Part shown: positions 39,849 through 62,469 of the stretch, in pieces
Layout: every line of letters starts with the position of its first letter
Numbering within the stretch: position 1 is the stretch's first letter
From: Gammaproteobacteria bacterium
GTDB lineage: Bacteria > Pseudomonadota > Gammaproteobacteria > Pseudomonadales > Halieaceae
Direction: 5' to 3'
Assembly: GCA_024742415.1 (NCBI GenBank)
Contig: JANSYN010000004.1
Location: 186,001 to 250,000 of the forward strand
Length of the DNA: 64,000 bases
Notes under the pieces: generated by a model
What the model was told of the DNA's origin: nothing
Seen by the model: only the letters and a program-made list of their open reading frames with translations
Databases searched by the model: none
Program-made: the position numbers and the translations under genes

Positions 39849-39867
39849 TTTGTAAAGATTTCTGACA
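39849..39867 (-). promoter_or_regulatory. Candidate PrsR activator site upstream of the PEP-CTERM gene
   Basis: TTTGTAAAGATTTCTGACA (plus-strand reading) lies 72 bp upstream of the sigma-54 element, in the 114-bp space before the prsT stop. It is 15/19 identical to a site at 62451-62469 placed similarly before another sigma-54 match. An enhancer role is inference. Confidence 0.5.
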
Positions 39868-39890
39868 CGGTAGTCACGCTGGCCCCTGAT

Positions 39891-42695
39891 CTACTCGGCC
39901 AACTGGGCCAGCAGTGCCTGGGCGGCTTCCCTGTCGCTGAATTCCGGGCTGGCATTGAGCAGTGAGGACAGCACCCTTGCAGCCTGTCGATTCTGCCCGG
40001 CCTGGGCCAGTGCAACCGCAAGGTGGTACTGGAAGTCGGTGCGGCCGGGCGCCGCCTCTGTTGCGCGCCGCAGCAGGGCCACGGCCCGCTCTTCCTGCCC
40101 GGGACTTTGCAGCAGGATCATAGCCAGTGTGTCCTGCACCGGGGCTGCATCGGGTGCTTGCCGGTGCGCTTCCTCCGCCAGCGTCAGTGCGCGCCTGGGG
40201 TCGCGCTCACGCAACAGCCACGCGAGGTTGTTGATCGCTGGTGTATCGTTGGGGTGCGTTTCTACCCGCACTTCGAACGCCGCGATGGCCTGCTCTTCGC
40301 GCCCACCCAGTAGATACAGGTTGGCCAGATTGTACTGCACCAGTTGATCATCGGGCCTGGCGGTCATCCAGGTTTCCAGGTGTGCATAGGCGGCGTCGAA
40401 CTCCCTGGCGCGCCACAGTGCCAGGGCGTATTTGATCGCGACGCTGGAGTCTTCAGGTTGCAGTTCCAGCATTTTGCCCAGCGCGGCCACCTCGCGCTCG
40501 GGCTTCTGCTCTAACCGCGCCAGCTTGGCGGCCTGGTCATACACGTCTGCCTGACCGGGGTACTGGTTCTCCAGGCGCGTGACTATTTCGCGCGCTTCAA
40601 CCGTTTTGCCCTGGGCGATCACCAGGCCGGCCATCGCAATCTGGATCGTGTAGTTGTCGGGATGTGCCTCATACGCGGCGGCCAGAGTCTCACTGAATCG
40701 GCGCACATCGCCCGTTTCATAGTAGGCCTTGGCCAGCAGGTAGTGGTTGCGTGCACTCAGGCTACTGAGGCTCTCCAGCTGTTCATACGCACTGATAGCC
40801 TGGTTGTACTTACCGTTTGCCGCGCGTGCGGCGCCCAGCACTGCAAGCACGCCGGGGTTTTCCGGATAGCTTTTGTGCAGCTCCGAGATATCGTCCAGTG
40901 CGCGCTCTGGGTCGCCATTCTCGAGCCGGATCTGTGCCAGCATGGTGCCGCTGTCAATGAATTGCGGATAGGTCTCGCGAGAGTTTTCGAGCACTTGTAT
41001 GGCTTTGTCGATATCGCCCACTTCGTTGTACAGGCGCGCCAGTGATACGGTGGTGCGCGGGTGCCCCTGGTAGAACATCTGGCTCTGCTCGTAGTAGGCG
41101 ATCGCCGCTTTCAGGTCGCCGCCGTACAGCGCAAAAACGGCCAGGTTATGTGAAGCGCTGGGGTTGCCCGGGTCCAGGTCAAGGACGGCACCAAAGGACT
41201 GTCGTGCGGCCTCGGTCTGGTTGCTGTTGAGCTGTGACCAGGCGAGCGCCAGCCTCGCGTTGACGCTTTGCGGCTTGCGCTCAATCCACTGCCGCTCGGC
41301 CTGGATCGCGCGCTCAGGCTCACCGGCCTTGATCTGCGCCTGTACCAGCTTGAGTTCGAGTTTTTCATCCTCCGGCGCCAGTTCGATCGCCTTTTCCATG
41401 GCGGCGGTGCCTTCTTCGATATCACCACTGAGTATCATCGCCACACCCAGCTTGGAGTGCGCACTCGCCGAGGCGGGGTTCTGTGCCAGCAGCTTGCGGT
41501 AGCGCGCCAGGGCATCCTTCTGGTTGCCCTGGATGAGTTCCAGGCCTGCCATGAGGTCCAGCGTTTCCTGCTGGTCGGGATTTTCCTTGAAAATCGGGTC
41601 AAGCAGGGCCTGGGCGGATGCCAGGTCACCCTGGCGGATTTGCAGGCGCGCCAGCAGATTTGACGCGGTGACGGACTCCGGCACCTGGGCGAGAAACTGG
41701 CGCAGGTAGAGTTGTGCCTGTTCGTCGTTGCCCAGCAGCGTGTGGGTCAGGCCCAGATAGTACTGGGCGGGCGGGTAGTCTTCGTACTTGGTCAGTGCCG
41801 CTTCAAACGACCCCTGGGCGCGCAGTAATTCACGTTGCTGCAGTTCGATCAGGCCGGTTGCATAATACTTGCCGGGCAGTTGCGCGGGCAATCGGCGTAT
41901 GTCCTGGCGGGCTTCGGGGTACTTGCGCAGATCGATCCTGAGCAATGCGCGCTGCAGCAGGTATTTTGCTGGAGTGCGCGAGAAGTTGATGGCCTGACCG
42001 TAGGCATTCTCGGCACCTTCACGGTCGCCCTCGAGGGCGAGTAAATCACCGCGCAGGCTCCATGCCTCGGGTTGCCGCGCATCGATCGCCATGGCCTTTT
42101 CCAGCCACTGCGCGGCCTCCTCGGCATTGCCAAGGTTGCGCTGCACGAACGCCTGTCCGAGGGTGGCGGTGGCCTCGCCGGGGTTGAGCTCCAGAGCGGT
42201 GCTGAAGTACGTCTGGGCACTGGCCAGGTCGGCCAGGCGCAGGCTTGCCATGCCGCGCAATCCCATGAGTGACGCCTGGTCCTCTTTGGACATGCTCTGA
42301 TCGACCTGGAACTCCTCGAGCAGCCCGGTGTAGTTGCCCGCCAGCAGCACGGCACCGGCCAGCGGCAACAGGACATCGCTTTCCGGTATGCCCATCTCCA
42401 GGGCGCGGCGCATTTCCTTTTCACTGGAATCCCCATCACCCAGGGCGAAATAGGTCTGCCCCAGCAGGAAGCGGGCATTCGGGTTCATCGGGTTGATTCT
42501 CAGTGCATTTTTGAGTTCGATGGCCGTTGTATTGAGGTCGCCCGCCTGCAGTGAGGTTTGCGCGCGCGCCACGTAATCCGCATCGGTGAGGTCCTCGCTG
42601 CAGCCTGCGCTAACAATGAGGGCGGCGATCGCCAGTGCCCCGGCCAGTGAGCGCGTGCGTCGGGGTATACTGCGGGTCGGTTTGAACGTGTTCAT
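39891..42695 (-). CDS. prsT: PrsT-type TPR lipoprotein (first copy)
   Basis: The 934-residue protein has a lipobox (ALIVSAGCSED, Cys32) and more than twenty TPR-like helical pairs to the end (for example LKNALRINPMNPNARFLLGQ and YALALWRAREFDAAYAHLE). PrsT proteins are PEP-CTERM-system TPR lipoproteins thought to scaffold EPS assembly or export across the periplasm. A second, similar-length copy lies at 50098-52917. No convincing sigma-54 site is seen in the 211 bp upstream of this copy. It is downstream of the AMIN/barrel gene on the same strand. Confidence 0.93.
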   Translation of the reverse strand: MNTFKPTRSIPRRTRSLAGALAIAALIVSAGCSEDLTDADYVARAQTSLQAGDLNTTAIELKNALRINPMNPNARFLLGQTYFALGDGDSSEKEMRRALEMGIPESDVLLPLAGAVLLAGNYTGLLEEFQVDQSMSKEDQASLMGLRGMASLRLADLASAQTYFSTALELNPGEATATLGQAFVQRNLGNAEEAAQWLEKAMAIDARQPEAWSLRGDLLALEGDREGAENAYGQAINFSRTPAKYLLQRALLRIDLRKYPEARQDIRRLPAQLPGKYYATGLIELQQRELLRAQGSFEAALTKYEDYPPAQYYLGLTHTLLGNDEQAQLYLRQFLAQVPESVTASNLLARLQIRQGDLASAQALLDPIFKENPDQQETLDLMAGLELIQGNQKDALARYRKLLAQNPASASAHSKLGVAMILSGDIEEGTAAMEKAIELAPEDEKLELKLVQAQIKAGEPERAIQAERQWIERKPQSVNARLALAWSQLNSNQTEAARQSFGAVLDLDPGNPSASHNLAVFALYGGDLKAAIAYYEQSQMFYQGHPRTTVSLARLYNEVGDIDKAIQVLENSRETYPQFIDSGTMLAQIRLENGDPERALDDISELHKSYPENPGVLAVLGAARAANGKYNQAISAYEQLESLSSLSARNHYLLAKAYYETGDVRRFSETLAAAYEAHPDNYTIQIAMAGLVIAQGKTVEAREIVTRLENQYPGQADVYDQAAKLARLEQKPEREVAALGKMLELQPEDSSVAIKYALALWRAREFDAAYAHLETWMTARPDDQLVQYNLANLYLLGGREEQAIAAFEVRVETHPNDTPAINNLAWLLRERDPRRALTLAEEAHRQAPDAAPVQDTLAMILLQSPGQEERAVALLRRATEAAPGRTDFQYHLAVALAQAGQNRQAARVLSSLLNASPEFSDREAAQALLAQLAE

Positions 42696-42906
42696 GCCAG
42701 TGGTTTCCTGTCGCGATTGGACGTCTAGAATGACCTGAAATTGCCGTCTCCCATTGTGGTATGAATTGCGGCGCGTGTCTGTAGTAAGTTCGGATCACGG
42801 GGGCTGTTGCCTGGCCGCGTCAGACGTTTTGTGGCCGCTGTCACAGTATTGGCGCGCTGCAGGCTGGCTCCAGCTGGCAACTGGACGATCCGGGCCGCGC
42901 GGTGTG

Positions 42907-44601
42907 CTAGAAGAAACGGTCCAACTGAAACTCGATGTAGTCATCCTGCTCGAAGAACAGCGTCGGGTCTTCGTCGTCGATATTGAAAAAGGTGCGCGCT
43001 TCAACCGTCAGCGTCCAGGCTTCACCCAGCCGCCTGACTGCCTCAATATTGCCAAAGCTGGAGCCGTTGTCGAGGTCGACGATAACGCCCGCCAACAGGC
43101 GACTGCCGGCGATGTCGTTGCCGGTCAGGCGCAGCCCGGTGAAAAGATCGTTCTGGAAAGTGCTTTGCAGGTTGATGTCGCGCTCGTCGTAGTGGTACTC
43201 CACCAGCCAGCCCAGGTCGGCAGCGCTGCCGCCAATGCCATACTGCGTAAATTCCAGGCCACCGACCGACGCGAAGAAGTCTTCCAGTGTGTTGCGGTTG
43301 TAGATCGCCTCGAGCTTCCATAGCCAGGCGCCTTTGGTGGCCTGCACATCAAGGCTGGTCTGGTCGATCTGCTGGTACAGCGGACGCAGGCTGGAGGGGG
43401 GGGAAGCCCCTGGTGTCAGCGTCGTCCCGAAACCCGTATATGAGGGCACCAGCAGCGGCGCTCGTGAGGTGCCGGTAAAGTGCGCAAGGCCAATGTCCCA
43501 ATCGCCGATGTAATGGCTCCAGCGCAGGGCGAAGTCGATATGTTCCTGTTCATCGCCGGATTCCCACAGTGGGTCGCCGGTATCTACCGCCGGATTGGTC
43601 CGCAGCCTGCCGTCTTCACCGGGAAAGGTGCGTTCGCGGAAGTAGGGCAGAACGTAGAGTTGCCATGTGCCCCAATCACTGAAGTAGTCGAGGTTGAACA
43701 TGGGTTGCCCCAGTTTGTCCTCGGTATCGATGTTCTCCACCAGGTCGGTCTGGTTGATGATGTCTACAAGGTGCTGCGATTCGGTCACGCCCCAGAAAAC
43801 CACGTCTATGCCAGCCTTGATGACCCAGGGGCCAGATTCCAGCCGCCAGTACAGTTCCCTGATATCAGCATGCGTGCGCTCATCATCGACAGCGTCGTAG
43901 CGCATGAAAGGCCGGAAGGCAAAGCGCTGGCGGCCATTGGCCCAATCGATGTAGTACTGCGGCTCAAAGGCCACGCTGATGTCATTGCGGTTTTGTGGGC
44001 GATATGCCGGATCCTGGAAAAACACGCGTGACTGCACACCCAGTGAGCCTGACCATTCACCCGAGGCAGTTGCAACCGGACTGGGCAGGGCGGTGGCGTC
44101 CTGCGGCGTGATCGAGGCGGGGCGCCGCATCTGAGCCGTTGCAGTGGTTGGGGTGCTGGCCTCCACGGTCGGTTGGTCGGCTGTTGCCGGGTTGGACAGG
44201 TCAATCACCAGGCGATTGCCGCGCCCCTGATCCGGCTTCAGCGTGAAACTCCTGGCCGGCGTGGCGCTGCGTAAATCAAAGACAAATCGCAGGCTGTTGT
44301 CGGGTTGTACGCCGGATCGTATGCGCGCAATCGGCGTACCCTGCACTGAAACAGCGTTGTGGGCACGAGCGCCCGTAGTGCCCGGAGGAAAGTCGATGAC
44401 CAGTCGTTCAGGGGAAGACAGTGTAGACAGCTTGTAGGACCCGGGTTGGGCCAGGTCAAACACAACGCGCGTGTGGTCGGGCGTAATGCCAAGGCGCAGG
44501 GTCTTTATCTGCTGTGCTGTCGCAGCCCCGGGCTGGCCCGAAACGCTGTTGCCCAGCAATGCCAGCAGCAGTGGAACGACGATGGCGAATGCCTTTTTCA
44601 C
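42907..44601 (-). CDS. AMIN domain fused to an outer-membrane beta-barrel
   Basis: Of about 564 residues, the signal peptide (FAIVVPLLLALLGNSVSG) is followed by an AMIN-like domain (TLRLGITPDHTRVVFDLAQP, then PERLVIDFPPGTTG and SGVQPDNSLRFVFDL), a Pro/Thr-rich linker, and a region of about 370 residues of alternating strands (SLGVQSRVFFQDPAYR, RFAFRPFMRYDAVDDE, FALRWSHYIGDWDIGLAHF) ending in QLDRFF, the terminal Phe typical of barrels. AMIN usually directs septal or secretin proteins to peptidoglycan. GTG 44601 follows GGGAG; a TTG at 44628 is weaker. It is downstream of the LolA-like and MMPL genes. Confidence 0.75.
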   Translation of the reverse strand: MKKAFAIVVPLLLALLGNSVSGQPGAATAQQIKTLRLGITPDHTRVVFDLAQPGSYKLSTLSSPERLVIDFPPGTTGARAHNAVSVQGTPIARIRSGVQPDNSLRFVFDLRSATPARSFTLKPDQGRGNRLVIDLSNPATADQPTVEASTPTTATAQMRRPASITPQDATALPSPVATASGEWSGSLGVQSRVFFQDPAYRPQNRNDISVAFEPQYYIDWANGRQRFAFRPFMRYDAVDDERTHADIRELYWRLESGPWVIKAGIDVVFWGVTESQHLVDIINQTDLVENIDTEDKLGQPMFNLDYFSDWGTWQLYVLPYFRERTFPGEDGRLRTNPAVDTGDPLWESGDEQEHIDFALRWSHYIGDWDIGLAHFTGTSRAPLLVPSYTGFGTTLTPGASPPSSLRPLYQQIDQTSLDVQATKGAWLWKLEAIYNRNTLEDFFASVGGLEFTQYGIGGSAADLGWLVEYHYDERDINLQSTFQNDLFTGLRLTGNDIAGSRLLAGVIVDLDNGSSFGNIEAVRRLGEAWTLTVEARTFFNIDDEDPTLFFEQDDYIEFQLDRFF

Positions 44602-44661
44602 ACAACTCCCTGCGAATGATGCACGCAACGTGGGCGTGGCTTGTCGTGGCGGCAGGGCATG

Positions 44662-45492: not shown

Positions 45493-45577
45493 CGGCAGCA
45501 GGGTGTCCGGCGCAGGGCTGCCAGGGCCAGGCCCATGGCGCAGGTGTGGAGCGCCACGCAGGGAGTGGCGGTTGCAA

Positions 45578-47902: not shown

Positions 47903-48077
47903 TGCTATGCCGCGTAGAAATACCGTTAGGGCGTGGGTATCAACGCTTGTTATATGTCCAATGTCGGGAATTAGCAGATCGTTGTCAAACCCGACTGTAC
48001 TTTTATGCGCTAGCTATGCGCCAACTCGCGATGGCGCGCGCACGGCGCCTGCGGTCAGCGTGTCCTGTGCACCAAAT

Positions 48078-48095
48078 TGTCGCAAATTTGCGACA
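48078..48095. promoter_or_regulatory. Perfect 18-bp palindrome upstream of the acyltransferase
   Basis: TGTCGCAAATTTGCGACA is perfectly self-complementary, in a plain AT-rich intergenic stretch about 165 bp upstream of the sigma-54 element. GTCGCAAATT recurs at 48144-48153. A dimeric activator site is the simplest reading. Confidence 0.6.
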
Positions 48096-48142
48096 CCACA
48101 AGTAATTGTTTTGTAACGAAAATAGCGTATCACTGGAGAATC

Positions 48143-48162
48143 CGTCGCAAATTAACTACAAA
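48143..48162 (+). promoter_or_regulatory. Candidate PrsR site upstream of the acyltransferase
   Basis: CGTCGCAAATTAACTACAAA shares GTC-N2-AAAT-N4-TACAAA with the inverse of the 39849-39867 element (GTC-N2-AAAT-N3-TACAAA; one base longer spacer). It ends 94 bp upstream of the sigma-54 element, a distance similar to the other two sites. Confidence 0.4.
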
Positions 48163-48256
48163 TTGTGGCCAGGCTGACGCAGTTTTGGCGCTAAAACGCC
48201 AATGGTTCGCTGGCCTTATCACTAACCCCATGAAAAACATCATATTTGGTAATTTT

Positions 48257-48270
48257 GGTGTGCAATTTGC
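48257..48270 (+). promoter_or_regulatory. Sigma-54 promoter of the acyltransferase
   Basis: TTGGTGTGCAATTTGCA has GG-N10-GC spacing and a perfect TTGCA -12 element (9 of 12 consensus positions). The predicted transcription start is near 48282, 27 nt before the ATG at 48309. Confidence 0.7.
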
Positions 48271-48308
48271 AGTCAAAGTACCAAAAGGCTCCCCACGCAG
48301 GGGGTCTG

Positions 48309-48878
48309 ATGGCATCAAGGGGTGTTAAAGGGGTAAGTACTTTGTCTATAGAGTTCACGGTAAGTCGCGAACAGGTACATCTGGAACAATACTATGCGCT
48401 TCGGGAGCGCTGCTTCAGGCGGGAACTGGGCCTGGAGGAGTTTGATGGGTCCGAGGAGGAGCGGGATCGCCAGGGTGACATCCTGGTAGCCCTTTGGGAG
48501 GGCCGCTGCGTGGGGGGAGCGCGCGTGTCCTCCCGCATTTCCCACCCCCGCCAGCTGGAACTGCTGGGCCTGGACAGCGAGTTAGCGTGCATGTGGGAGC
48601 GCTTCGCCATCGAGCCGGGCGTGCGCAGCCTGCAGCTGGTGCATAGATTTTGTGCGAGCCTGGTCCAGTTTTCACGTGACAGCGGGTTCGAGCATGCCAT
48701 GATCCTCAGCTCATTGCGCAATGCGCGCTTTTACCGGCGCTGTCATTCTGCGCTGGGCGTGGATTTTCAGATCCACCGACCGGTACCCCACTGTGCAAGC
48801 GGCGCATTTGCCGGCCTGGAGCACTACCTTTCGGTTGCCAGTTTGCAGGAAGTCCCAGCGCTGCAACTAGCCGTGTAA
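48309..48878 (+). CDS. FeeM-like/GNAT acyltransferase (second copy)
   Basis: The protein of about 189 residues has a GNAT/N-acyl-amino-acid-synthase pattern: VHLEQYYALRERCFRRELG, GDILVALWEGRCVGGARVS, CMWERFAIEPGVRSLQLVHRFC and a C-terminal ARFYRRCHSALGVDFQIHRP. It is shorter than the copy at 33565 and only distantly alike, so it may act on another acyl donor or amine. ATG 48309 has AGGGGG 8 nt upstream and lies just after the sigma-54 start; the frame is open to a GTG at 48246, which would overlap the promoter. Confidence 0.7.
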   Translation: MASRGVKGVSTLSIEFTVSREQVHLEQYYALRERCFRRELGLEEFDGSEEERDRQGDILVALWEGRCVGGARVSSRISHPRQLELLGLDSELACMWERFAIEPGVRSLQLVHRFCASLVQFSRDSGFEHAMILSSLRNARFYRRCHSALGVDFQIHRPVPHCASGAFAGLEHYLSVASLQEVPALQLAV

Positions 48879-50097: not shown

Positions 50098-52917
50098 GTG
50101 CAAGTGCTGCAAGTACAGCGACAAATTCAAACAAAACCTTTCGTCAGGCCCGTCCTCGCGTTGCTGGCGGTCATGGCGGCCCTGTGCCTGCAGGCGTGTG
50201 GTGAACAGACCAGTCAAGAGCACGTCAAAACCGCTCGCCAGCTGATCGAACAGAAGAACAATGCCGAGGCTGTCGTTGAGCTCAAGGCTGCCCTGGGTAA
50301 AGATATTCGCAACGTCACCGCCAGGGCACTGCTGGGCAAGGTCTATTTTTCCAGTGGTGATTACGAGGGTGCCGAGAAGGAACTGTCCAGGGCCCTCGAA
50401 CTGGACGACAGCGTTGAACGGTCGATGGTAGTCCCGCTGCTGTCACGGACGCTGCTGCATATTGGCGATTTTATCCGGCTGGATAGCATGCCGGTGCATG
50501 ACCTGAATGATCAGGGCCGTTCGATAGTATTGTCAGCCAAGGCCCTGGCGCGGCTGTACCAGGGTGATCCGGTTGTTGCACAGCAGATCATCGAAACCGC
50601 GCTCGCGGTAGAGCCTGTGCCTTCCTTTACGCTGCTGGCGTCCGCCCGGATGGCGCTGGCGCGCGGCGATCACGCCGGCGCCGATCGCGAACTGGATGCT
50701 TTGCTTGAGCGCACGCCTGGTTATCATCCCGCCTGGAATTTGCGCGGGGACATCTACGCTTCACAGCGCGCCGCCAAACTCGCTGAAGCGGCCTACAGCA
50801 AAGCCCTGAAAATTGCCCCGCGTATATTTGATGCCCGCCTGAACCGGGCCATGATGCGCATTTACCAGAGTGATTTCAAAGGCGCGCGCGAAGACGTGCA
50901 GATGCTAAAGCGTATGCACCATCTCGCTGCGCAGAATCATCCGGGCGTGAGTTTCGCCGACGGCTTGTTGATGATGCGGGCGGGCAACTACGATCCCGCG
51001 CGTAAAGCCTTTGAGAAAACCGCGGATTTTTCCTATGCCTATCCATTGGCCTACTACTACATGGCGGTGATTGATTTGCAGCAGGGCAGCCTGCAGCGTG
51101 CGCTGGGTGAAATCTACCGGTTCCTTGCGCTGGCGCCAGAGAGCGTTGTAGGCCCAAAACTGGCAGCGCTGTTAGAACTGGAACACGGTGGTTTTCACGA
51201 AGCGGAGCAGCTGTTGCAGCCGATCGTCGCCACCTATCCCAAGGACATTGAGGCACTGAACCTGCTGGCCAGCGCCAAGCTTGGGTTGGGCAAGGGCGGG
51301 CAGGGCGTGCAGCTACTGGCTCGCGTAGCGCAACTGGAGCCGCGCTCTGCCAGTGCCAAGACTCGCCTGGGAGCGGGGTACCTTGCTACCGGCGATACCG
51401 ATCGCGCAATCTCAATACTCAAACGCTCGGCGACGATTGACCCGAAGTTTGAGCAGGCCGACATCCTTCTGATACTGAACTACCTGCGCGATAACAAAGT
51501 TGACGAGGCCATCACAGCCGCCGTTGAGTTCAAGAATCGTAATCCCGGCAGCACCAGTTCTTTCAATTTGTTGGGTCGCGCCTATTTTGCCAAGGAGGAT
51601 TACGAGAAGGCTGGCTGGGCTTACAACAAATCACTTGAGCTGGATGTGACGGATTCTGCTGCCAGGCATGGCCTTGCCGAGATCGCTATCGCGCGCGGCG
51701 AATTTGGCCGCGCCAGAAATTTGTATCAACGTATCCTGAAGTACGATGAAGACGATCTGCACACGCAGCTGAAGCTGGCTTCCTCTTACGCACTGCAAGG
51801 CAGTGAGCAGAACATGATCGACATCCTCGAGATAGCGATGGATGATCACCCTGAGTCGACCGAGCCCCTGTTGATGTTGATCCGTTACTACATGGCTTCA
51901 GGACAGATGGATAACGCTCGCCGCATGGTCGAAAAGCTGCATACCGTACACCGTAACCAGCCTGATGCGCTGGCGACCATTGCGGGCTTTCAGGTTGCCA
52001 GTGGCAGTTACAACCAGGCGTTACTGACTTTGCAGCAATTGATATCGCTGCGTCCTTCCGTCGCGCACTACCACTTTATGCGCGCCAGGGCGTACGCTGG
52101 CTTGAACGATACGGAAAGCGCCCTTGCTGAGCTTGCGCAAACCGCGGAGTTGGACCCGCGCCATTTTTACGCCAAGGTGTCTTTGGCCAGGTTGGCCCAG
52201 ATGAACAACCAGCATGAACGCTTCACGGCTTTGCTGGCCAATCTGAAGTGGCTCGCGCCGCAAAACCTGGATGTGTTACGCATGGAACTGCTGCAGGCAC
52301 AAAAGGCCGGCGACAATACCGCGGTGGCGGCCTTGCTACAGCAGATCTACCAGCAGTCGCCAACGACGAGTGACCTGATCGCGCTCGCTGCCGACCGCTT
52401 CGATGCCGGTGATAGAAATGGCGCCGTGCAGTTAATGAAAGACTGGATCGAAAAAAATGACAAAGATATTGTTGCGCGCCTGAAGTTGGCAGACTTTTTC
52501 CTGGCGCTGAAGCAGCAGAGCGCGGCGATTGATCAGTATCGCCAGATCGTGCGCATTGATTTCGATAACGTCATTGCGCTGAATAATCTTGCCTGGGAAC
52601 TGCTCGACAGTAACCCCAAGGAAGCGCTGCGCTACGCGCGTAAAGCCTTCGACTTGTCGGCAGATACGCCGGCCGTTCTGGATACGCTGGCGATGGCCCA
52701 GTTGAACAACGGTCAGCTTGCGGCAGCCGGCAGATCGATCGATCGGGCGTTGGAGCTCGACCCAAAGAACGCAGAATATCGCTATCACAAGGCGCAGATA
52801 CTCTATGCAAAGGGTGAGAAAAACAGTGCGCGAGCTGCACTGCAAACTGCGCTGGCAGAGGATTCCGCGTTCGCCCAGCGCAGGCAGGCCGAGGCGCTTC
52901 TGGGAAGACTGCAATGA
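50098..52917 (+). CDS. prsT: PrsT-type TPR lipoprotein (second copy)
   Basis: The 939-residue protein starts at GTG 50098, has a lipobox (AVMAALCLQACGEQ, Cys34) and about twenty TPR units (AVVELKAALGKDIRNVTARAL, YSKALKIAPRIFDARLNRA, AALLGRLQ at the end). It is the same length class as the copy at 39891-42695, and its sequence differs throughout, so the two are paralogues, not a recent duplication. It is convergent with prsR. A sigma-54 element lies 87-100 bp upstream. Confidence 0.93.
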   Translation: MQVLQVQRQIQTKPFVRPVLALLAVMAALCLQACGEQTSQEHVKTARQLIEQKNNAEAVVELKAALGKDIRNVTARALLGKVYFSSGDYEGAEKELSRALELDDSVERSMVVPLLSRTLLHIGDFIRLDSMPVHDLNDQGRSIVLSAKALARLYQGDPVVAQQIIETALAVEPVPSFTLLASARMALARGDHAGADRELDALLERTPGYHPAWNLRGDIYASQRAAKLAEAAYSKALKIAPRIFDARLNRAMMRIYQSDFKGAREDVQMLKRMHHLAAQNHPGVSFADGLLMMRAGNYDPARKAFEKTADFSYAYPLAYYYMAVIDLQQGSLQRALGEIYRFLALAPESVVGPKLAALLELEHGGFHEAEQLLQPIVATYPKDIEALNLLASAKLGLGKGGQGVQLLARVAQLEPRSASAKTRLGAGYLATGDTDRAISILKRSATIDPKFEQADILLILNYLRDNKVDEAITAAVEFKNRNPGSTSSFNLLGRAYFAKEDYEKAGWAYNKSLELDVTDSAARHGLAEIAIARGEFGRARNLYQRILKYDEDDLHTQLKLASSYALQGSEQNMIDILEIAMDDHPESTEPLLMLIRYYMASGQMDNARRMVEKLHTVHRNQPDALATIAGFQVASGSYNQALLTLQQLISLRPSVAHYHFMRARAYAGLNDTESALAELAQTAELDPRHFYAKVSLARLAQMNNQHERFTALLANLKWLAPQNLDVLRMELLQAQKAGDNTAVAALLQQIYQQSPTTSDLIALAADRFDAGDRNGAVQLMKDWIEKNDKDIVARLKLADFFLALKQQSAAIDQYRQIVRIDFDNVIALNNLAWELLDSNPKEALRYARKAFDLSADTPAVLDTLAMAQLNNGQLAAAGRSIDRALELDPKNAEYRYHKAQILYAKGEKNSARAALQTALAEDSAFAQRRQAEALLGRLQ

Positions 52918-52945
52918 CCCGCCTGCCGCACAGCAGGCCCCCCGG

Positions 52946-54301
52946 CTAGTTTTTCAGTCCCAGCTTCTCAAGCAGGTTATACAGCGTTGGACGCGTAACG
53001 CCTAGCACATTGGCCGCATCGGTGATGCTCTGGTTGCAGTGGTTCATCGCCCGCATGATTGCCTTGCGCTCTGCCTCTTCCCTGACCGCCTTGAGGTTCA
53101 GTGGTAGCGGCTCTTCTGTTGCTTCTTCAAGCTCAAGATCCTGCGGGGTAATCTGGCTCCCGTCCGCCATGATAACGGAGCGCTTGATCTTGCTCTCCAG
53201 TTCACGCACGTTGCCCGGCCAGGTGTAGGCTTCGAGCGCCGCGATCGCCTCCGCTGAGAAGCCCTTTGCAGAACTGTTGTATTCCTTGGCCAGCTTGTTC
53301 AGAAAGGATTTTGCCAACACCAGTACATCGCCCTCGCGCTCGTGCAAAGGTGGAATTTCAATCACGATTTCACTGATACGGTAATACAGGTCTTCGCGGA
53401 ATCTGCCCTGTTCTATCAGCTTGCGCAGGTCCTGGTGTGTCGCGCACAGGATCCGAACATCGACAGGAATCTCCTTGCGACCGCCGATACGTTCTACCAC
53501 GCGCTCTTGCAAAAAGCGCAACAACTTGGCCTGCAGTTCCATGGGCAGGTCGCCAATCTCATCCAGGAACAATGTACCCCCGTCGGCGTACTCGATCTTG
53601 CCGGGCGTTTGTTTTGCCGCGCCGGTGAACGCGCCTTTCTCATAGCCAAACAGTTCGCTTTCGAGCAGGTTTTCTGGAATAGCGGCGCAGTTGATCGCCA
53701 CAAGTGGGCCCTTGGCCCGGGTGCTGAGTTCGTGCAGCGCCTGGGCGCAGCGCTCCTTGCCTGTCCCGCTGGCGCCCAGGAGTAGGGTGGTGATGTCAGA
53801 CGGCGCGATTTTCTCTATCGTACGACAGATCTTCAGCATCTGGGGGCTTGCCGTAATAATGCCGCGCAAGGGCATGTTTTCATCTGCCTGTTGCAGCCGC
53901 TTGTTTTCCCGTTCAAGTTCATAGACATGCTGGGCGCGTTTGACCAGCATTGCGAGCAGTTCCGGGTCGGCCGGCTTCTGGTGAAAATCATAGGCGCCCA
54001 TCGCAATCGCTTTCACCGCGTTTGCGCGGTCGTTGTCGCCAGTCACGATAATGACCTTGGTTTCAGAGGCCAGTGCCAGGATCTCGCTCAGGGTTGCCAG
54101 GCCCTCTGTGACGCCTCCCGGGTCGGGCGGTAAACCAAGATCCAGGAGCACAACGCCTGGCTGTATTCTGCGAAAGGCGCTGATTGCCTCTGCCCGGTCA
54201 CCGCTGATCTCAACCTCGAAGTCATCGAATGCCCAGCGCAGTTGGCTCTGCAATCCCTTGTCATCCTCGACGACCAGGAGGTGCTGCTTGTCATTTTTCA
54301 C
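52946..54301 (-). CDS. prsR: PEP-CTERM-box response regulator PrsR (sigma-54 activator)
   Basis: The 451-residue NtrC-type protein has a receiver domain with phospho-acceptor Asp54 (VVLLDLGLP), an AAA+ domain with Walker A LGASGTGKERC, the sigma-54-contacting GAFTGA loop, and the Walker-B-like GGTLFLDEIGDL, and a Fis-type HTH at the C terminus (SITDAANVLGVTRPTLYNLL). It activates sigma-54 promoters when phosphorylated by PrsK, whose gene overlaps it by four bases. The sigma-54 matches reported here are its likely targets. Confidence 0.97.
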   Translation of the reverse strand: MKNDKQHLLVVEDDKGLQSQLRWAFDDFEVEISGDRAEAISAFRRIQPGVVLLDLGLPPDPGGVTEGLATLSEILALASETKVIIVTGDNDRANAVKAIAMGAYDFHQKPADPELLAMLVKRAQHVYELERENKRLQQADENMPLRGIITASPQMLKICRTIEKIAPSDITTLLLGASGTGKERCAQALHELSTRAKGPLVAINCAAIPENLLESELFGYEKGAFTGAAKQTPGKIEYADGGTLFLDEIGDLPMELQAKLLRFLQERVVERIGGRKEIPVDVRILCATHQDLRKLIEQGRFREDLYYRISEIVIEIPPLHEREGDVLVLAKSFLNKLAKEYNSSAKGFSAEAIAALEAYTWPGNVRELESKIKRSVIMADGSQITPQDLELEEATEEPLPLNLKAVREEAERKAIMRAMNHCNQSITDAANVLGVTRPTLYNLLEKLGLKN

Positions 54302-56484
54302 TGATCAAATCCTTCTTCTGCGTACTGGGTGCTGACCGTTTCAGCAGCTTGCGCGGGAATTTGTACCCTGAACAGGGAGCCCTTGCCGGGGGTACTGGTC
54401 ACGCTGATATCCCCGCCAAGGCTGCGGATGAAGTCGCGGCTTTCAAATGCACCGATACCCATACCCGTTAGGCCCTTGGTAGAGTCAAAGGGTTTGAACA
54501 GGCGGTTCTTGATGAAATACTCGTCCATGCCTTCGCCAGAGTCCTCGATACTTACGATCACCGATTCGTGATCATAGTCCAGGCTCACCTTCACAAACCC
54601 GTCCTTGCCAGTCGCATCCTGTGCATTGTGCACAAGATGCCCAAACACCGCGTGTAATCTTTCTTTCTCACAGATGACTGTCCAGCATTCGTCGGGCACT
54701 GCAAAGGTCGGTGCGGGTTCACGCAAGCAGCTTCTTTGCACTACGTCCTGCAGCAGCTCGCAGATATTGACGGCCCGTTGATCGGTGGCGCCGGTGTCGC
54801 TGCGCAACTGCGCCATCAGTTTGGTCATGCGTTCCACAGAGTTGTTGACGGTGTCGACCATGTCGTCGACGAACGCCGGGTTATTCTTGTGTTTCTCGGC
54901 GTTCGATACCATCAACGATTGCTGTGCCAGTATGTTTTTAAGGTCGTGGATCACATAGGCAGACAGACGATTGAACGCCTCAAACTGTCGCGACTCCACC
55001 AGTTCCTGGTCAGCCTGGTACTGCGCCAGATGCGTTGCTGCCTGACGGCCCGCCACTTTGAGCAGGTCACGGTCTTCCCAATTCAGTTCACGCAGGTGTT
55101 CCGATTCTTTCAGGAGCAATATCCCCTGCAGTCGCTCCCCAAAAAACAGCGGAATGATCAGCCATGCTCGGGGTGTTTCTGCGATATCCCTGGGAAGCTC
55201 AAGATGGTCATACATGTCCGGTGAGCGGCGCCATTCGTGCAGATCAATAATCCACTGTTTGCGCTGCAGCCACTTTGCCAGTGAGTCCATAGGCGTCGCG
55301 CCATCGAGCTCTGGCATTTCCCAGTGCGCAAGAATCGTAAGCTTGCCATTGGGTCCGCGTGCCCACAGTGCGCCCGCCGGGCTCTGGGCAAGATCCGCGA
55401 TGCCCTGGATAACGCTCATCGGAAGATTCTGGTCTCCGCTGGCCAGCTTGGCGGTAAACTCCAGCCACTCCAGGCGATAGTCGTATTTGTAACTGAAGAA
55501 GTTTTTGGACAGCCATACGCGGGTGCGTGAGCGAATCCGCCCAGAGAAGAGCAGCACCACCAGGACCAGTCCTGCGGCTACCAGGAACGTGATCTGCAGT
55601 ACGCTCCCCCAACTCCCACCAAGATAGCGCAGGAAGTAGGCGGCCAGGGCCATGCTGATCAGGTAGAGCCCCGATGCCAGGAGTGTCAGCGAATGGAAAG
55701 CAACATGACGCGACAGGTACAGACTGCGCGGTTGCACGGCGTCGGCGGTGCGCCCAGTGCGGTGCATACTTATTGCAGCCAGCAGAGCCGCCATGGTGAT
55801 GACCACACCTCGAGCCTGCCAGAAATTTCTGTCCAGGTGTTGGAATAGCAGGGCCTCGGCATACATGAAAAAATCATAGGCGAAGATAATGCCAAGCGCG
55901 ATGCACAGGTGCTTGGTGGGCCACAGTTCATTTTCGTTGCCATTGCGAAAGTGCTGTTCAATGAGAAACAGCGCCAGTACTGCCATTGCCAACCAGACGC
56001 TAAAGGCAATGTTCGCCGAGGTGGCAGCCGTGAAGCGCAAGGCTTCGGCGTAGGGCCCGGCCATCAACACCAGTGTAAACGCGATGGCATAGCCGATCGC
56101 ACTGAGTCTGATCCAGCGCTGGCCGAGTTCGGGGTGATCGCTGCTCATGAGTCGAATATTGAGCAAGCGCAGCAGAACAAAAGTCCATGCGGCGTTGCGA
56201 ATCACCTCGGTGATCTGGATCAGTAACAGCTGTGGCTCCACGGCGAGTGTTGATAACGCGACGCTGCCTGCCCATACCGCGGTGAGGGCGCTGGCTGCCA
56301 GGAGTGAATTACCCAGTGGATTGTCGCGACGGGTGTAGATCGCCAGTAGTGTGAGCAGCACAAACGCAACGAACGCCATACCATAACTGTACAGTCCGAT
56401 GTTGCCGAGAAAACTGGTTGGTGCCTCCACTTCTAAACTTCCCAAAGCGTGTGCCATTTCACGTTCCGCCGTAGCGCGGTCCAC
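54298..56484 (-). CDS. prsK: PEP-CTERM system histidine kinase PrsK
   Basis: The 728-residue protein has 8 or more transmembrane helices in the first 300 residues, a GAF-like domain (about 330-480, with REWRRSPDMYDHLELP in the middle), an H-box with YVIHDLKNILAQQSLM (His phospho-acceptor), and a C-terminal HATPase with VSIEDSGEGMDEYFIKNRLF and KGLTGMGIGAFESRDFIRSL. It phosphorylates PrsR; the signal sensed is unknown. The stop overlaps the prsR start by four bases (ATGA). Confidence 0.97.
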   Translation of the reverse strand: MDRATAEREMAHALGSLEVEAPTSFLGNIGLYSYGMAFVAFVLLTLLAIYTRRDNPLGNSLLAASALTAVWAGSVALSTLAVEPQLLLIQITEVIRNAAWTFVLLRLLNIRLMSSDHPELGQRWIRLSAIGYAIAFTLVLMAGPYAEALRFTAATSANIAFSVWLAMAVLALFLIEQHFRNGNENELWPTKHLCIALGIIFAYDFFMYAEALLFQHLDRNFWQARGVVITMAALLAAISMHRTGRTADAVQPRSLYLSRHVAFHSLTLLASGLYLISMALAAYFLRYLGGSWGSVLQITFLVAAGLVLVVLLFSGRIRSRTRVWLSKNFFSYKYDYRLEWLEFTAKLASGDQNLPMSVIQGIADLAQSPAGALWARGPNGKLTILAHWEMPELDGATPMDSLAKWLQRKQWIIDLHEWRRSPDMYDHLELPRDIAETPRAWLIIPLFFGERLQGILLLKESEHLRELNWEDRDLLKVAGRQAATHLAQYQADQELVESRQFEAFNRLSAYVIHDLKNILAQQSLMVSNAEKHKNNPAFVDDMVDTVNNSVERMTKLMAQLRSDTGATDQRAVNICELLQDVVQRSCLREPAPTFAVPDECWTVICEKERLHAVFGHLVHNAQDATGKDGFVKVSLDYDHESVIVSIEDSGEGMDEYFIKNRLFKPFDSTKGLTGMGIGAFESRDFIRSLGGDISVTSTPGKGSLFRVQIPAQAAETVSTQYAEEGFDQ

Positions 56485-56601
56485 AGAGAAACACTATACT
56501 CTGCCCCCATTGGTGTAAATGCCAGCGGGCGTTATCTGGGATGCGCCGCACAAAATAACACGCGCTCTAAGCCGGGACTTTCAAGGGAATTTTAGTATCT
56601 T

Positions 56602-58954: not shown

Positions 58955-58977
58955 CGCGTATAGATACGGTGTTTGCG

Positions 58978-60075
58978 CTATTTGTTCTCCAGCGCAGTGG
59001 CAGAGTCGTCTTTTCTGCGCATCCATGCCTTTCGCACCAGGTGTGGCAGCAGTAGGTGCAGCGGCATACGCAGGTAGTGAGAGCGGATATACAACGCGTT
59101 TAGTGCCAGGCCTGTCAGCGGCAATCTGCACCCGGGGTGGCTGGGTCGGAAGGCGCGAATAAACAGAAAGTCCATGAGCGGTTGGCGCAGGCGTGCTGCC
59201 CAACCCGTTGCTTCCTCAACGACCCTGGCCGGTACCGGCGTTTCGAAAACCAGCCGCGTATAGCGCAGCGCGTGACACAGCGGGGCGTCGAGTTCCAACT
59301 GCCTGGCGCGTGCTACCAGCCCGTCCCAGAAACTGGCATCCAGTTGCGGAAACTCCTGCAGCATCTGGTGCAGATCCCACAGGTCGCGCAGGCCGTGATA
59401 AAACTCTCCTTCGTGGAAGAGGTGTGTTGCGCTATGGATAACCATGTCCTGCAACGACAGCGTAAAAGTTGCCGGTTTGACTTCTTTTACGCTGTCAAAG
59501 AGCAGGTCAGCGTCAATTGTGGGGCCCGCCGTTGGCGGCAGTATATTGTGATGCAAATCCAGTGTGGTGCCGCGTCTGGGATTTACCAGTGCTGGCGTTT
59601 CGTGACTCCATCTTCGGTAGTAGCTCTCGTTGTATGAGTCCAGTTGGCTCGACTCCCAGCCGTATGCATTGAGTGCAGATTCGGCGTCCTCGATATGTTC
59701 CCTGGGCACGATGATGTCGATATCGGTGATCAGGCGCCCCTGGCTAACTGCCAGGTTGGTGTGCAGGTAGGCGCCTCCCTTGAGCAGCACCAGGCGCAAG
59801 TCCACCGACGCCAGCGCCGCCCGGATAGACTCGCAGTCATGGAGTAAATCGCGCCGCTGCTTGTGGTGCACGAGCAGGGCAGACCTGAAGTGTCGACGTG
59901 CACTCTCGGGCAGCAGCGCCAGGGCACCCGAGGCCTCAAGGCGCGCGGCAAGCGACGCCAGCAGGCGCGACGTGCGGGCCTGGCTGATGACCATACTGAT
60001 GTCTGCGGCGCTCATTCGGGGCAGGGCGCCGGGTCGCAGCAGTGCGTCGCGCAGCAAGAAATCGGGCGTGTTCAT
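58978..60075 (-). CDS. Nucleotidyltransferase-family protein (PF14907 type) of the HprK-related cassette
   Basis: The 365-residue protein has the nucleotidyltransferase segment LVLLKGGAYLHTN, then LITDIDIIVPREHIEDAESALN (metal-binding DID), and the downstream DLHHNILPP and MVIHSATHLFHEGEFYHGLRDL. The family (PF14907, Uncharacterised nucleotidyltransferase) is known from exosortase EPS loci beside HprK-related kinase. The start overlaps the kinase stop by four bases. Substrate unknown. Confidence 0.85.
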   Translation of the reverse strand: MNTPDFLLRDALLRPGALPRMSAADISMVISQARTSRLLASLAARLEASGALALLPESARRHFRSALLVHHKQRRDLLHDCESIRAALASVDLRLVLLKGGAYLHTNLAVSQGRLITDIDIIVPREHIEDAESALNAYGWESSQLDSYNESYYRRWSHETPALVNPRRGTTLDLHHNILPPTAGPTIDADLLFDSVKEVKPATFTLSLQDMVIHSATHLFHEGEFYHGLRDLWDLHQMLQEFPQLDASFWDGLVARARQLELDAPLCHALRYTRLVFETPVPARVVEEATGWAARLRQPLMDFLFIRAFRPSHPGCRLPLTGLALNALYIRSHYLRMPLHLLLPHLVRKAWMRRKDDSATALENK

Positions 60076-60977
60076 CCGACAAGCTCTTCCATTTTAGCCA
60101 CCGCCCAGTCCAGGTCGTGATACACCAGGTCAAAGCACTCAACCTGGCTGACGAGGTGCTGCATGGCATCAAAGCCATCTTCGCCAAGTACGCTGTAGTT
60201 AAAGGAATGGTAGGCCGCGAGCACAAAACTGGCGCTGCGATAGCGATGGTACAGTTCCTGTGGCTCATCGCGGCTGTAACGCGGGAACACCATCAGGGCC
60301 GCAGGGACAGTGTTGATGTCATGGCTGTGCGGTGCCATATCGGCTTTCATGTGTGCCACTGTTCCCTTGTGCGTGTTGCGGCTTTCGGGCCCAAGAATGA
60401 CGCCGCTATCAAATGCCTGGATCGCCTGTATGCTTTCGTTCTTCAGGCTGACAGGTCGGCTGAGCGGCGTCAGATCAATAGTGCCGGGTGTAATCAGCGC
60501 GTGCTCGTCAGACAGCACGCGCCAACCGCTCAGCCCCAATGCGGCGCACAGGGTGCTTTTGCCGGCGCCCGGTATGCCCGGCATGATGATGCCGGCTCCC
60601 TTGCGGGCCACCACCGCAGCATGCAGCTTGAGGTACTCGTTTACGTGCAGCGAGACGCACCAGTTCATACCCCATTCCAGGAAGGCATAGGCCTGCTGTA
60701 CGGGTACGGTGTCGAAAGGGCTTTGTTGATCAAACAGGAACTGGGCCTGGCCGCGCAGTTTCTGCGCAATGGTGTCTTGGCGCAGCCCTACATCGAAATC
60801 GACGAAACTCCCGTTCGGGGCCAGGGTGAAGTCCGCGTAAAGGCGTGCAAGCCCCTGGCCAATCGCGGCGACATTGCTTCTTATGCGGTAGACGTACGGC
60901 CCAATGAGCAGGTCAACGCCGCCAGAGGCCAGGCGCTCGGTGAGCGCGCTCATGGGGAGTTCCCGAAGCAGCGACAT
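60072..60977 (-). CDS. HprK-related kinase A (TIGR04352 type)
   Basis: The 301-residue protein has an HprK-like P-loop IMPGIPGAGKSTLCAALG (Gly-rich loop 134-141) and a downstream WRVLSDEHALITPG region. It lacks the full N-terminal domain of true HPr kinase/phosphorylase. The subfamily occurs with a PqqD-like protein and a nucleotidyltransferase, as here. Its target is not known; a phosphotransfer to a small-protein partner is the usual assumption. It overlaps the nucleotidyltransferase by four bases. Confidence 0.88.
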   Translation of the reverse strand: MSLLRELPMSALTERLASGGVDLLIGPYVYRIRSNVAAIGQGLARLYADFTLAPNGSFVDFDVGLRQDTIAQKLRGQAQFLFDQQSPFDTVPVQQAYAFLEWGMNWCVSLHVNEYLKLHAAVVARKGAGIIMPGIPGAGKSTLCAALGLSGWRVLSDEHALITPGTIDLTPLSRPVSLKNESIQAIQAFDSGVILGPESRNTHKGTVAHMKADMAPHSHDINTVPAALMVFPRYSRDEPQELYHRYRSASFVLAAYHSFNYSVLGEDGFDAMQHLVSQVECFDLVYHDLDWAVAKMEELVG

Positions 60978-61031
60978 CAGGGTGCGCCGCCTGCCGCCAG
61001 AAATCGCAATCTTCGCTGTACGGTGGCCTGT

Positions 61032-61337
61032 TTACGCAGGCGCACTGTCAACCACCTGGCCATCATGCACTGCCAGGTGTACAACACCCAGTTCGACAAG
61101 CTCGCCAATAACGGTGGCAATGGCTTCACGCAGTTGTGCCTGGTCGGCAGTGTCGGTCATGTCAGCAAGTGAGTCTTCCAGCTCGCGGGAAGTCTTCGCC
61201 GCGCCAGATAGCTCGCGTACGATTTGGGCGGCAAAATCCGTGAGCAGGTGGGTATCGCCGCTGGCGGGGTCGAAGTACACCACTGAGCCTTCGTTTTCAT
61301 CGTAAAACTTGCCGGCAGTAGACACGCGCCATCGCAT
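61032..61337 (-). CDS. PqqD-family peptide chaperone of the HprK-related system (TIGR04353 type)
   Basis: The 101-residue protein has the PqqD winged-helix pattern: YDENEGSVVYFDPASGDTHLL, DFAAQIVRELSGAAKTSREL and ATVIGELVELGVVHLAV. PqqD-like proteins bind leader peptides of modified peptides. It is 54 bp from the kinase, same strand. A substrate peptide has not been defined; the small protein at 61537-61947 is a candidate. Confidence 0.88.
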   Translation of the reverse strand: MRWRVSTAGKFYDENEGSVVYFDPASGDTHLLTDFAAQIVRELSGAAKTSRELEDSLADMTDTADQAQLREAIATVIGELVELGVVHLAVHDGQVVDSAPA

Positions 61338-61536
61338 TCGACTCAGTTCCTGTTATTGCAAAAGCGCATTATTTCAAATGGTATGAAGCGTGGCCAGCAT
61401 TGCCCGTGGAATATGGCCAGCACGAGCGCCCGCGTGTCGGCTCGGGTACGCTAACGTGCCTGATGAAGGAAAGCTGTGCTGCGGGTGTGAGCATAGAGCG
61501 GGCCGTTCGAACGTTAATCGAGCGGCCCCGATGGGT

Positions 61537-61947
61537 CTAATCCGGGCACTTGCCTCGTACCAGACAAATGTAATTGGCTTTTGAGGGATCTTCGCAAGTG
61601 CGCCATCTGCCCGATTTGCCCAGGAAATCCGGCGCGCCGCCAATGCGGTGGATGTCGCGGGCGAGTTCGAGGTTGTGTTCGGGTCGGCCAGCGGGAGAAG
61701 AGGTGAACATGCCTGTTTCAGGGTGGAAGGAGTTCAGGGTCATCACGGACATGCAGCCCGCCACTTGTCCACCACCGCCCCACGCGGCGCGGTTACCCAG
61801 CGAAAGCAGCACCGCTCCGCCAGCCAGGGCCGCCTTGGAGAAGTGACGCCGATTGTGGTTTACCGTAGAGTCAGCGTCTGACACAGGCTGATCATCCTGA
61901 CCGCCACTGCCGATGTTGTCGTTCGAACTATCCAATGTGTTCCTCAC
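61537..61947 (-). CDS. Small Tat-signalled protein, possible target of the PqqD/HprK cassette
   Basis: The 136-residue protein has a hydrophilic lead of about 30 residues (Asp/Ser-rich), then a twin-arginine-like signal (NHNRRHFSKAALAGGAVLLS), and a short mature part with three cysteines (AGCMSVM, RWRTCEDPSK, YICLVRGKCPD includes two). It starts at GTG 61947, with a TTG 12 nt later as alternative. It is the first gene of the cassette, 200 bp upstream of the PqqD-like gene on the same strand. No family is recognised. The tail with C-x(n)-C and RGKCPD looks like a short mature peptide. Confidence 0.6.
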   Translation of the reverse strand: MRNTLDSSNDNIGSGGQDDQPVSDADSTVNHNRRHFSKAALAGGAVLLSLGNRAAWGGGGQVAGCMSVMTLNSFHPETGMFTSSPAGRPEHNLELARDIHRIGGAPDFLGKSGRWRTCEDPSKANYICLVRGKCPD

Positions 61948-62351
61948 CTCGACCTGGCCCGTCTAGCCAAGTCGTTGAACCTAAGTCAATAAGCCTCCCC
62001 GTAAAGGTCGGGCCGTTTAAACTGCGCTGCTGCTGGTCACTACTGTTAACAGCTCTGACCTCGACAGCGTTCGCAGTTTATTGCTATCAAGCCGCCGCCC
62101 TGATCATCCGTGCGCTGGCGACTGCGCGCTCCTGCCCTCTTGATGGAAGCAGTTTGACTTGTCCACCCGGCCTAAAGTTCCAACGCCCTTGTGTGCGTTA
62201 CAGCAGGCACGTTACTTCAGGCAAACCGGCCAGCGCGACGATCTTTACTGTATCACCGCCACCGCTACGCAGATACAGGGATTAGCAGTTGCTGTGACAC
62301 AATTCACACAAGCCAGTTTCGTAGTGTGCAATACGGCTCGGGTCAGTTAAT

Positions 62352-62365
62352 GCAAATATTGTGCC
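62352..62365 (-). promoter_or_regulatory. Sigma-54 promoter candidate for the small-Tat/PqqD/HprK cassette
   Basis: Read on the minus strand, AGGCACAATATTTGCA has GG-N10-GC spacing, GGCAC and a perfect TTGCA (10 of 12 consensus positions). Downstream on that strand the first gene is 61947. Confidence 0.7.
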
Positions 62366-62450
62366 TCAAACCTAAAAAGACTAACTAAAACAACAGGATG
62401 TGATTCGCTCGAGTGCGGCCCCCGTTTCACTCCCCTAATGCCCGACCGGG

Positions 62451-62469
62451 TTTGTAAATAATCCTGACG
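62451..62469 (-). promoter_or_regulatory. Candidate PrsR activator site upstream of the cassette promoter
   Basis: TTTGTAAATAATCCTGACG (plus-strand reading) matches the site before the PEP-CTERM gene at 15 of 19 positions, with the same orientation relative to the promoter and a similar distance (85 versus 72 bp). Confidence 0.55.

Follow-up and report, generated by a model that had tools for sequence, protein, structure and literature searches.

Which regulator reads the two similar elements that lie upstream of sigma-54-like promoters in a 64,000-nucleotide (nt) stretch of a Halieaceae genome (assembly GCA_024742415.1, contig JANSYN010000004.1, positions 186,001 to 250,000; hereafter the window)? 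One of them, site A, precedes a gene for a PEP-CTERM protein (TIGR02595 over cut-off). The other, site B, instead precedes the gene of a small protein with an N-terminal RR leader (RR-leader protein), and thus heads a unit of four genes that continues with a PqqD-family chaperone, an HprK-related kinase A and a nucleotidyltransferase-like protein. An earlier note on this DNA had proposed the two elements, together with a third and gapped one, as operators of the response regulator PrsR. For sites A and B this proposal is well supported by sequence comparison, namely by their match to a published motif, by the presence of PrsR and its kinase PrsK in the window and by the co-distribution of the motif with PrsR; the third site does not stand. 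We consider it very probable that PrsR, placed at a phased enhancer and aided at many promoters by bending through integration host factor (IHF), activates the sigma-54 polymerase for both PEP-CTERM and RR-leader proteins.

Two copies of a published, predicted enhancer motif in the window

Read on the minus strand, site A is TGTCAG-N5-TTTACA and site B is CGTCAG-N5-TTTACA, and each points at its sigma-54-like element, with 73 nt (site A) and 86 nt (site B) from the end of TTTACA to the sigma-54 16-mer. The 19-mers of the earlier note were found at 39849-39867 and 62451-62469 and agree at 15 of 19 positions as it described, with the same orientation and with distances (72 and 85) equivalent to ours. 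The conserved unit has 17 nt. In a pooled set of 140 sites, defined by a motif with at most 2 mismatches and a sigma-54 score of at least 9, the flanking positions carry at most 0.24 bits, so that two letters of each 19-mer fall outside the unit; position 1 is C, as at site B, in 19% of these sites. The gap of N6-7 in the search pattern of the note was mistaken, the actual gap being N5, and a scan with GTCAG-N6-7-TTTACAAA returned nothing in the window and a single match in the genome, that one with no sigma-54 element within 150 nt.

The motif had been derived by eye, the letters beyond the 17-mer are nearly uninformative, and with 3 mismatches allowed the motif is not in excess in the window (10 observed vs 8.44 expected), all of which would suit a chance similarity of two AT-rich intergenic stretches. 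The exact pattern GTCAGN5TTTACAAA, however, occurs twice in the window and in none of 100 dinucleotide shuffles (mean 0.00, max 0), and each of the first eight loci taken from named genomes (L336-L343) again has a site before its copy of the cassette. Chance is refuted for sites A and B, where it is extremely improbable, and accepted for the third site. Sigma-54 matches by themselves are at chance level in the window (20 vs 19.7 expected, at most 2 mismatches) and hence were not used as evidence on their own; only the motif and the sigma-54 element combined carry meaning.

Both sites fit motif 1 of Haft et al. 2006 (PMC1569441). In the text of that paper available to us, motif 1 has 17 nt, ends in TTTACA and is followed by a spacer (mean 62.8 nt, standard deviation 10.6, range 32-92) and then by the sigma-54 motif 2. 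The pair was found before 99 of 167 proteobacterial PEP-CTERM genes, with a few additional sites before other genes, and motif 1 was proposed as the PrsR site. The two window sites share with these promoters the TTTACA end, the length of 17 nt, spacers within 32-92 nt, the following -24/-12 element and a genome that also encodes PrsR, PrsK and PrsT. We have thus found a published motif once more, together with one target class that we did not meet in the text available, and the element, called unexplained in the earlier note, had been in print since 2006. Spacing is given in the 2006 text as mean and standard deviation, whereas its phasing is described here; the logo letters were compared for TTTACA only. 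A word search of the available text returned no IHF, integration host, bending, periodic, phase or PqqD, and 'helical' once, in a cited title. Among the titles and abstract openings found in our literature searches on the 2006 prediction, none speaks of testing the PrsR site that had been predicted that year. As far as the literature was searched, the regular, phased spacing, the adjoining putative DNA-bending site at a fixed place and the second kind of presumably exported protein, that is, the RR-leader/PqqD/HprK target, look new and are additions to this motif.

A related promoter is that of pepA from Aquincola tertiaricarbonis, a PEP-CTERM gene adjoining prsT. According to the part of the report available (PMC9850573), it has a mapped -24/-12 promoter (TGGCAC/CTGCTT), its transcription depends on rpoN1, and the authors place a predicted enhancer upstream. 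In that part it is RpoN, and not the PrsR site, that is tested.

The motif across the source genome

The whole genome (4.14 Mb) contains 5 matches to GTCAGN5TTTACAAA and 1 with N6 (reversed control 0), and 12 matches to the shorter GTCAGN5TTTACA (reversed control 1). For eight of the 12, a sigma-54 element that scores at least 10/12 follows at 41-86 nt. Besides the two in the window there are thus six strong promoters, which precede a PEP-CTERM protein (contig C27), three thrombospondin type 3 repeat proteins (C4, C11, C25), a putative lipoprotein that contains beta-propeller repeats (C25) and an open reading frame with no match (C18). In the C4, C11 and C25 proteins the thrombospondin type 3 repeats are followed by a GLPPGC end. 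This identical C-terminus is found in five thrombospondin type 3 proteins (C4:117103, C11:138316 and C25:20732, which are L114, L113 and L112, and the copies L328 and L329), three of which sit behind predicted PrsR sites, and it may be a further sorting or anchoring signal.

The remaining 4 of the 12 matches have no GG-N10-GC at 30-95 nt, and 3 of these 4 share GTCAGAGCCC. These GTCAGAGCCCTTTACA copies (C10, C12, C25) were rejected as PrsR sites and assigned to an interspersed repeat, since they share GTCAGAGCCC with further near-copies and possess no sigma-54 element; they are still counted as misses in the sigma-54 tally of exact sites given below. The interspersed string GTCAGAGCCCTTT (C10:79014, C12:37566, C25:162054, C11:119184) mimics half of the PrsR motif and looks like a repeat family.

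Co-distribution of the motif and PrsR

PrsR was found over cut-off in 67 of 194 genomes of the order. The motif matched 236 times in these 67 genomes (reversed control 57) and 178 times in the 127 PrsR-negative ones (control 110), an enrichment with PrsR at p=6e-8 (Mann-Whitney). The sigma-54 neighbourhood was checked for 142 distinct exact sites out of the 414 counted, 8 of them from loci taken as cassettes; note that exact 11-letter matches include chance ones. A sigma-54 score of at least 9 at 30-95 nt downstream is reached by 29 of 75 sites in PrsR-positive genomes vs 5 of 67 in PrsR-negative genomes (Fisher p=1e-5). Control windows of the same size gave 2/75 and 2/67 on the mirror side, and 0/75 and 1/67 at 130-195 nt. 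By eye, the first complete open reading frame after the site (larger loci, sigma-54 score at least 8) has a PEP-CTERM-like tail in 10 of 13 cases and an RR leader in one, and neither in two (L093, L212). In L227, from the PrsR-positive genome G086, a gene resembling a protein kinase by eye starts about 160 nt after the motif of a PrsR-type promoter.

The same distribution could in principle be produced by another sigma-54 activator that binds the motif and is distributed like PrsR. PrsR-like proteins of the NtrC family are present in all 194 genomes (E<=0.001), and the genomes G082 and G114, drafts of 87% and 83% completeness, possess cassette sites with no PrsR over cut-off; these two cassette carriers account for 3 of the 5 PrsR-negative sites with a sigma-54 score of at least 9. 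Outside the order, however, where 40 of 50 over-cut-off cassettes were taken, the cassette site is present in 6 of 9 PrsR-positive genomes and in none of 31 PrsR-negative genomes (Fisher p=2e-5). Moreover, PrsR, PrsK and PrsT are the proteins that match the profile of the motif in the available text of Haft et al. 2006 (PMC1569441), and prsR sits between the two loci of the window, as the earlier note had pointed out. A different activator is therefore unlikely, and PrsR is the preferred candidate.

Helical phasing of the spacing

The spacings between enhancer and promoter cluster overall at 41, 50-54, 60-65, 71-77, 83-87 and 92-97 nt, with few exceptions. In the first set of 29, the spacings are 41, 50-54, 61-65, 73-75 and 84-87, with a resultant of 0.76 at 10.5 base pairs (bp). 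The phasing was first noticed on the cassettes and this first set, and a held-out set was fetched afterwards, comprising 70 distinct sites from 107 matches in 17 PrsR-positive genomes. Of these sites 33 have a sigma-54 partner (mirror side 1, 130-195 nt 2), with spacings of 41, 52-53, 60-65, 73-74, 83 and 89 and a resultant of 0.72. Compared with spacings smeared by half a turn, the phasing is significant in each set (p<=5e-5), and also in the ten held-out sites outside the main cluster (p=0.0014). The resultant is broad in period and peaks near 11 bp.

In named genomes, the 42 cassette promoters that lie upstream and score at least 9 show spacings of 61-64, 71-77, 83-87 and 93-95 and a resultant of 0.66. 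A control of 60 matches with 4 mismatches gave a resultant of 0.18. The gaps between clusters hold 3 of the 140 pooled sites vs 20 of the 60 control matches; the limits of these gaps ('valleys') were chosen to suit the first set when the pooled histogram was already known, so that the gap counts, including 3/98, are descriptive and not a clean test. It follows from the clustered spacings that orthologous cassette promoters differ mostly by whole turns.

An IHF-consensus site at a fixed place

Counted from the sigma-54 element, the IHF consensus WATCARNNNNTTR occurs at either of two places, reversed with its centre near -52 or forward with its centre near -39. Within the pooled set, the consensus at these places is exact in 35 of 140 sites (0.11 in shuffled spacers), has at most 1 mismatch in 74 (1.75) and at most 2 in 100 (13.9), where the places were picked after the positions had been seen and the shuffles preserve base composition only. 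Exact matches occur in each of three subsets (13/42, 12/35 and 10/63). The stricter WATCAA, allowed anywhere in the spacer, was found in 30 of 140 sites vs 0.92 in shuffles, with 0 in upstream and 2 in downstream flanks of equal size. A profile over all positions has only the two position-and-orientation peaks, besides forward d=9 and reverse d=37 with 3 sites each at no more than 1 mismatch. In reversed sites the AT-rich arm faces the promoter, and in forward ones it faces, though less clearly, the enhancer; going by IHF complexes, we presume a bend near -45 for both orientations.

The succession of enhancer, IHF site and sigma-54 promoter is that of IHF-linked RpoN promoters in general, in which IHF lies between activator and sigma-54 promoter according to the abstract of PMC7962754. 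What differs here is that the IHF consensus occupies one of two combinations of orientation and position across many genera, and that the enhancer shifts by whole helical turns. In the available part of the same IHF study, a Geobacter 'PEP motif-containing protein exosortase substrate' is listed in an RNA-seq table.

Cassette promoters and RR-leader proteins

HprK-related kinase A is over cut-off in 18 of the 194 order genomes, 16 of which also have PrsR over cut-off, and all 18 cassettes possess the motif (at most 2 mismatches) and a sigma-54 element (score at least 8) upstream. The gene behind the site encodes an RR leader by eye and is matched in 17 of 18 cases by a hidden Markov model (HMM), the exception being L078, whose gene is cut. 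This HMM was built from 10 proteins and replaced a regular expression that was too noisy. From named genomes, 80 of 505 relatives were kept, 73 of them with at least 1.5 kb upstream; a site is located upstream in 41 of these 73 in sense and in none in antisense direction. In the eight loci L336-L343, five of which have titles naming Halioglobus, Halieaceae or Sediminihaliea, the spacing is 84-86 in six, 72 in L341 and 62 in L342. The 3 kb downstream of the named cassettes contain a site in 12 of 73. In seven of them (L362, L363, L369, L378, L382, L397, L399) the RR-leader gene itself is located downstream of the kinase gene, and the site is found before it there too; the others precede a PEP-CTERM gene (L349, L391, L409) or another gene (L374, L393).

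The HMM detected an RR-leader gene in 68 of the 80 named loci, 46 of them with a site within 450 nt (53 at 3 mismatches), a limit outside which site B of the window itself falls. In PrsR-negative genomes 17 loci have an HMM match, with a site in none at up to 2 mismatches and in one at 3; five of these 17 matches are weak (L291, L295, L300, L301, L318; E 0.004-0.009), so this class may be smaller. The link of the element to the PqqD/HprK cassette, already drawn in the earlier note, thus recurs widely: the cassette is a recurrent target of the motif, through an undescribed gene for a presumably exported RR-leader protein.

RR-leader proteins share an N-terminal RR with a hydrophobic stretch behind it, and most of them also have an end of the S(R/K)P type. 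Ten of them gave no NCBIfam match and no Pfam match over cut-off, with a single laminin-EGF match below cut-off (E=0.097). The family (L062-L079, L336-L415) lies beside PqqD, HprK-related and NTP_transf_5 genes, and many members carry SPGYW or TPGYW after the leader. Judging from gene order and from the role of PqqD-type proteins, the RR-leader proteins would be the substrates of the cassette. Both models of the HPr-rel-A system (TIGR04352, TIGR04353) are over cut-off here, with a promoter of PrsR type; literature searches for PqqD with HprK and PEP-CTERM, and for the HPr-rel-A names, found nothing.

Site B is the less regular of the two window sites. Its motif has one mismatch, it lacks the IHF consensus at the fixed place (the best match has 2 mismatches and lies elsewhere), it is located about 400 nt before the annotated start, and the distance from its sigma-54 element to the open reading frame exceeds that of relatives (175 nt in L336). 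It might be argued on these grounds that only the PEP-CTERM site is regulated by PrsR and that site B serves another activator or is decayed. The relatives L336-L339 nevertheless keep the orientation, the spacing of 86, a motif that deviates by 1-2 mismatches and a sigma-54 score of 9-10, and the C at position 1 is shared with the part of the pooled set mentioned above. We regard a separate or lost function of site B as improbable, and regulation of both sites by PrsR is preferred.

The third site and the genes of the window

The earlier note had placed a gapped version of the element upstream of a third sigma-54 match and had linked it to an acyltransferase. No motif 1 was found at that position with up to 3 mismatches, nor in the 450 nt that precede the acetyltransferase gene with up to 3 mismatches and gaps of N4-N6 included, and none of six orthologues of this gene has the pair of motif and sigma-54 element in sense direction. 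The site was ruled out as a PrsR site by its own locus and by these orthologues, and the link to the acyltransferase falls together with it. A sigma-54-like TGGTGTGCAATTTGCA (9/12) is located upstream of the GNAT protein at 48342, whose gene has no NCBIfam match.

The coordinates of the features are listed in Table 1. PrsR, PrsK and PrsT are all over cut-off in the window, and PrsR holds the GAFTGA loop that contacts sigma-54. For the PEP-CTERM gene, a start at the ATG at 39710 is more likely. Two PrsT-family TPR proteins with similar scores are encoded within this one window. A PEP-CTERM/exosortase-associated acyltransferase is found at 33547-34311 (TIGR03694, 225.9 bits).

Table 1. Promoter elements and genes discussed in the text, in coordinates of the window
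Feature	Position	Strand	Evidence or remark
PEP-CTERM protein related to flocculation protein PepA	38628..39752	-	NF033554 72.4 bits (below cut-off 80); TIGR02595 21.1 bits (cut-off 16)
Sigma-54 -24/-12 element, site A: AGGCACGGTTTCTGCT	39762..39777	-	10/12 consensus positions
IHF-consensus site TAACCAACTGATA (reverse orientation of WATCARNNNNTTR)	39797..39809	-	centre about -52; 0 mismatches at fixed position d=26
Predicted PrsR enhancer (motif 1) of PEP-CTERM gene, site A: TGTCAGAAATCTTTACA	39851..39867	-	0 mismatches to TGTCAG-N5-TTTACA
PrsT TPR protein	39891..42695	-	TIGR02917, 598 bits
Third, gapped site of the earlier note	48143..48162	+	rejected as PrsR site
Second PrsT-family TPR protein	50098..52917	+	TIGR02917, 592 bits
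PrsR, NtrC-type response regulator	52946..54301	-	TIGR02915 702 bits (cut-off 502.6); GAFTGA present
PrsK histidine kinase	54298..56484	-	757 bits (cut-off 300)
Nucleotidyltransferase-like protein	58978..60075	-	PF14907 NTP_transf_5, 164.7 bits
HprK-related kinase A	60072..60977	-	TIGR04352 331.7 bits (cut-off 200)
PqqD-family peptide chaperone of HPr-rel-A system	61032..61337	-	TIGR04353 51.9 bits (cut-off 35)
RR-leader (Tat-like) small exported protein (predicted), proposed cassette substrate	61537..61947	-	no Pfam/NCBIfam match
Sigma-54 -24/-12 element, site B: AGGCACAATATTTGCA	62351..62366	-	10/12 consensus positions
Predicted PrsR enhancer (motif 1) of RR-leader/PqqD/HprK cassette, site B: CGTCAGGATTATTTACA	62453..62469	-	one mismatch

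A proposed mechanism and its meaning

Several results weigh against the assignment of these promoters to PrsR and IHF. The enrichment of the motif with PrsR is weaker once the cassette-bearing genomes are removed (130 vs control 42, 51 genomes; p=5e-4). In PrsR-positive genomes, GG-N10-GC is missing at 30-95 nt from 36 of the 75 exact motifs, a further 10 have a score below 9, and two sites in PrsR-negative genomes (L084, L171) reach a sigma-54 score of 9, in addition to those of G082 and G114. The site is missing from 3 of the 9 PrsR-positive cassettes outside the order and, upstream and at the threshold used, from 32 of the 73 named cassettes. A spacing of 81 in G284 is off phase, and 40 of the 140 pooled sites have no IHF consensus at the fixed place even at 2 mismatches, to which the lack of one at site B is to be added. 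Finally, the genomes are related and the cassette promoters orthologous, so the counts are not independent events.

In the proposed mechanism, PrsK would phosphorylate PrsR, and PrsR would bind its enhancer, an imperfect dyad of 17 bp (TGTCRG-N5-TTTACA), always on the same face of the helix, as the phased spacing suggests. At many promoters, including the PEP-CTERM promoter of the window, IHF may bend the spacer at a set position, to which the fixed consensus points. This bending would bring the AAA+ ring of PrsR to the sigma-54 polymerase at -24/-12, and the ring would remodel the polymerase. The output would consist of PEP-CTERM proteins and of the RR-leader proteins encoded with the PqqD/HprK-related/nucleotidyltransferase cassette; the two classes would thus be made together. 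The NtrC site TGCACC-N5-GGTGCA is likewise a 17-bp dyad with an N5 centre and is bound by a Fis-type helix-turn-helix dimer; the predicted PrsR site differs from it in being asymmetric in sequence and fixed in orientation.

A wider reading, for and against which we see the balance as even, is that PrsR controls two surface-protein systems simultaneously, one of PEP-CTERM/exosortase substrates and a second, so far undescribed one. In the latter, the RR-leader (Tat-like) protein would be recognised by the PqqD-type chaperone, modified by the HprK-related kinase and the nucleotidyltransferase, and exported. The promoter code would be a phased module of PrsR, IHF and sigma-54 whose evolution proceeds in whole helical turns. 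The rules described here, i.e. the 17-mer, its fixed orientation, the phasing of 10-11 bp and the fixed IHF place, constitute a searchable code by which the PrsR regulon can be listed from sequence. Through them we already arrive at another class of presumably exported proteins, which lack Pfam or NCBIfam models and would be expressed together with the PEP-CTERM proteins used by floc formers.

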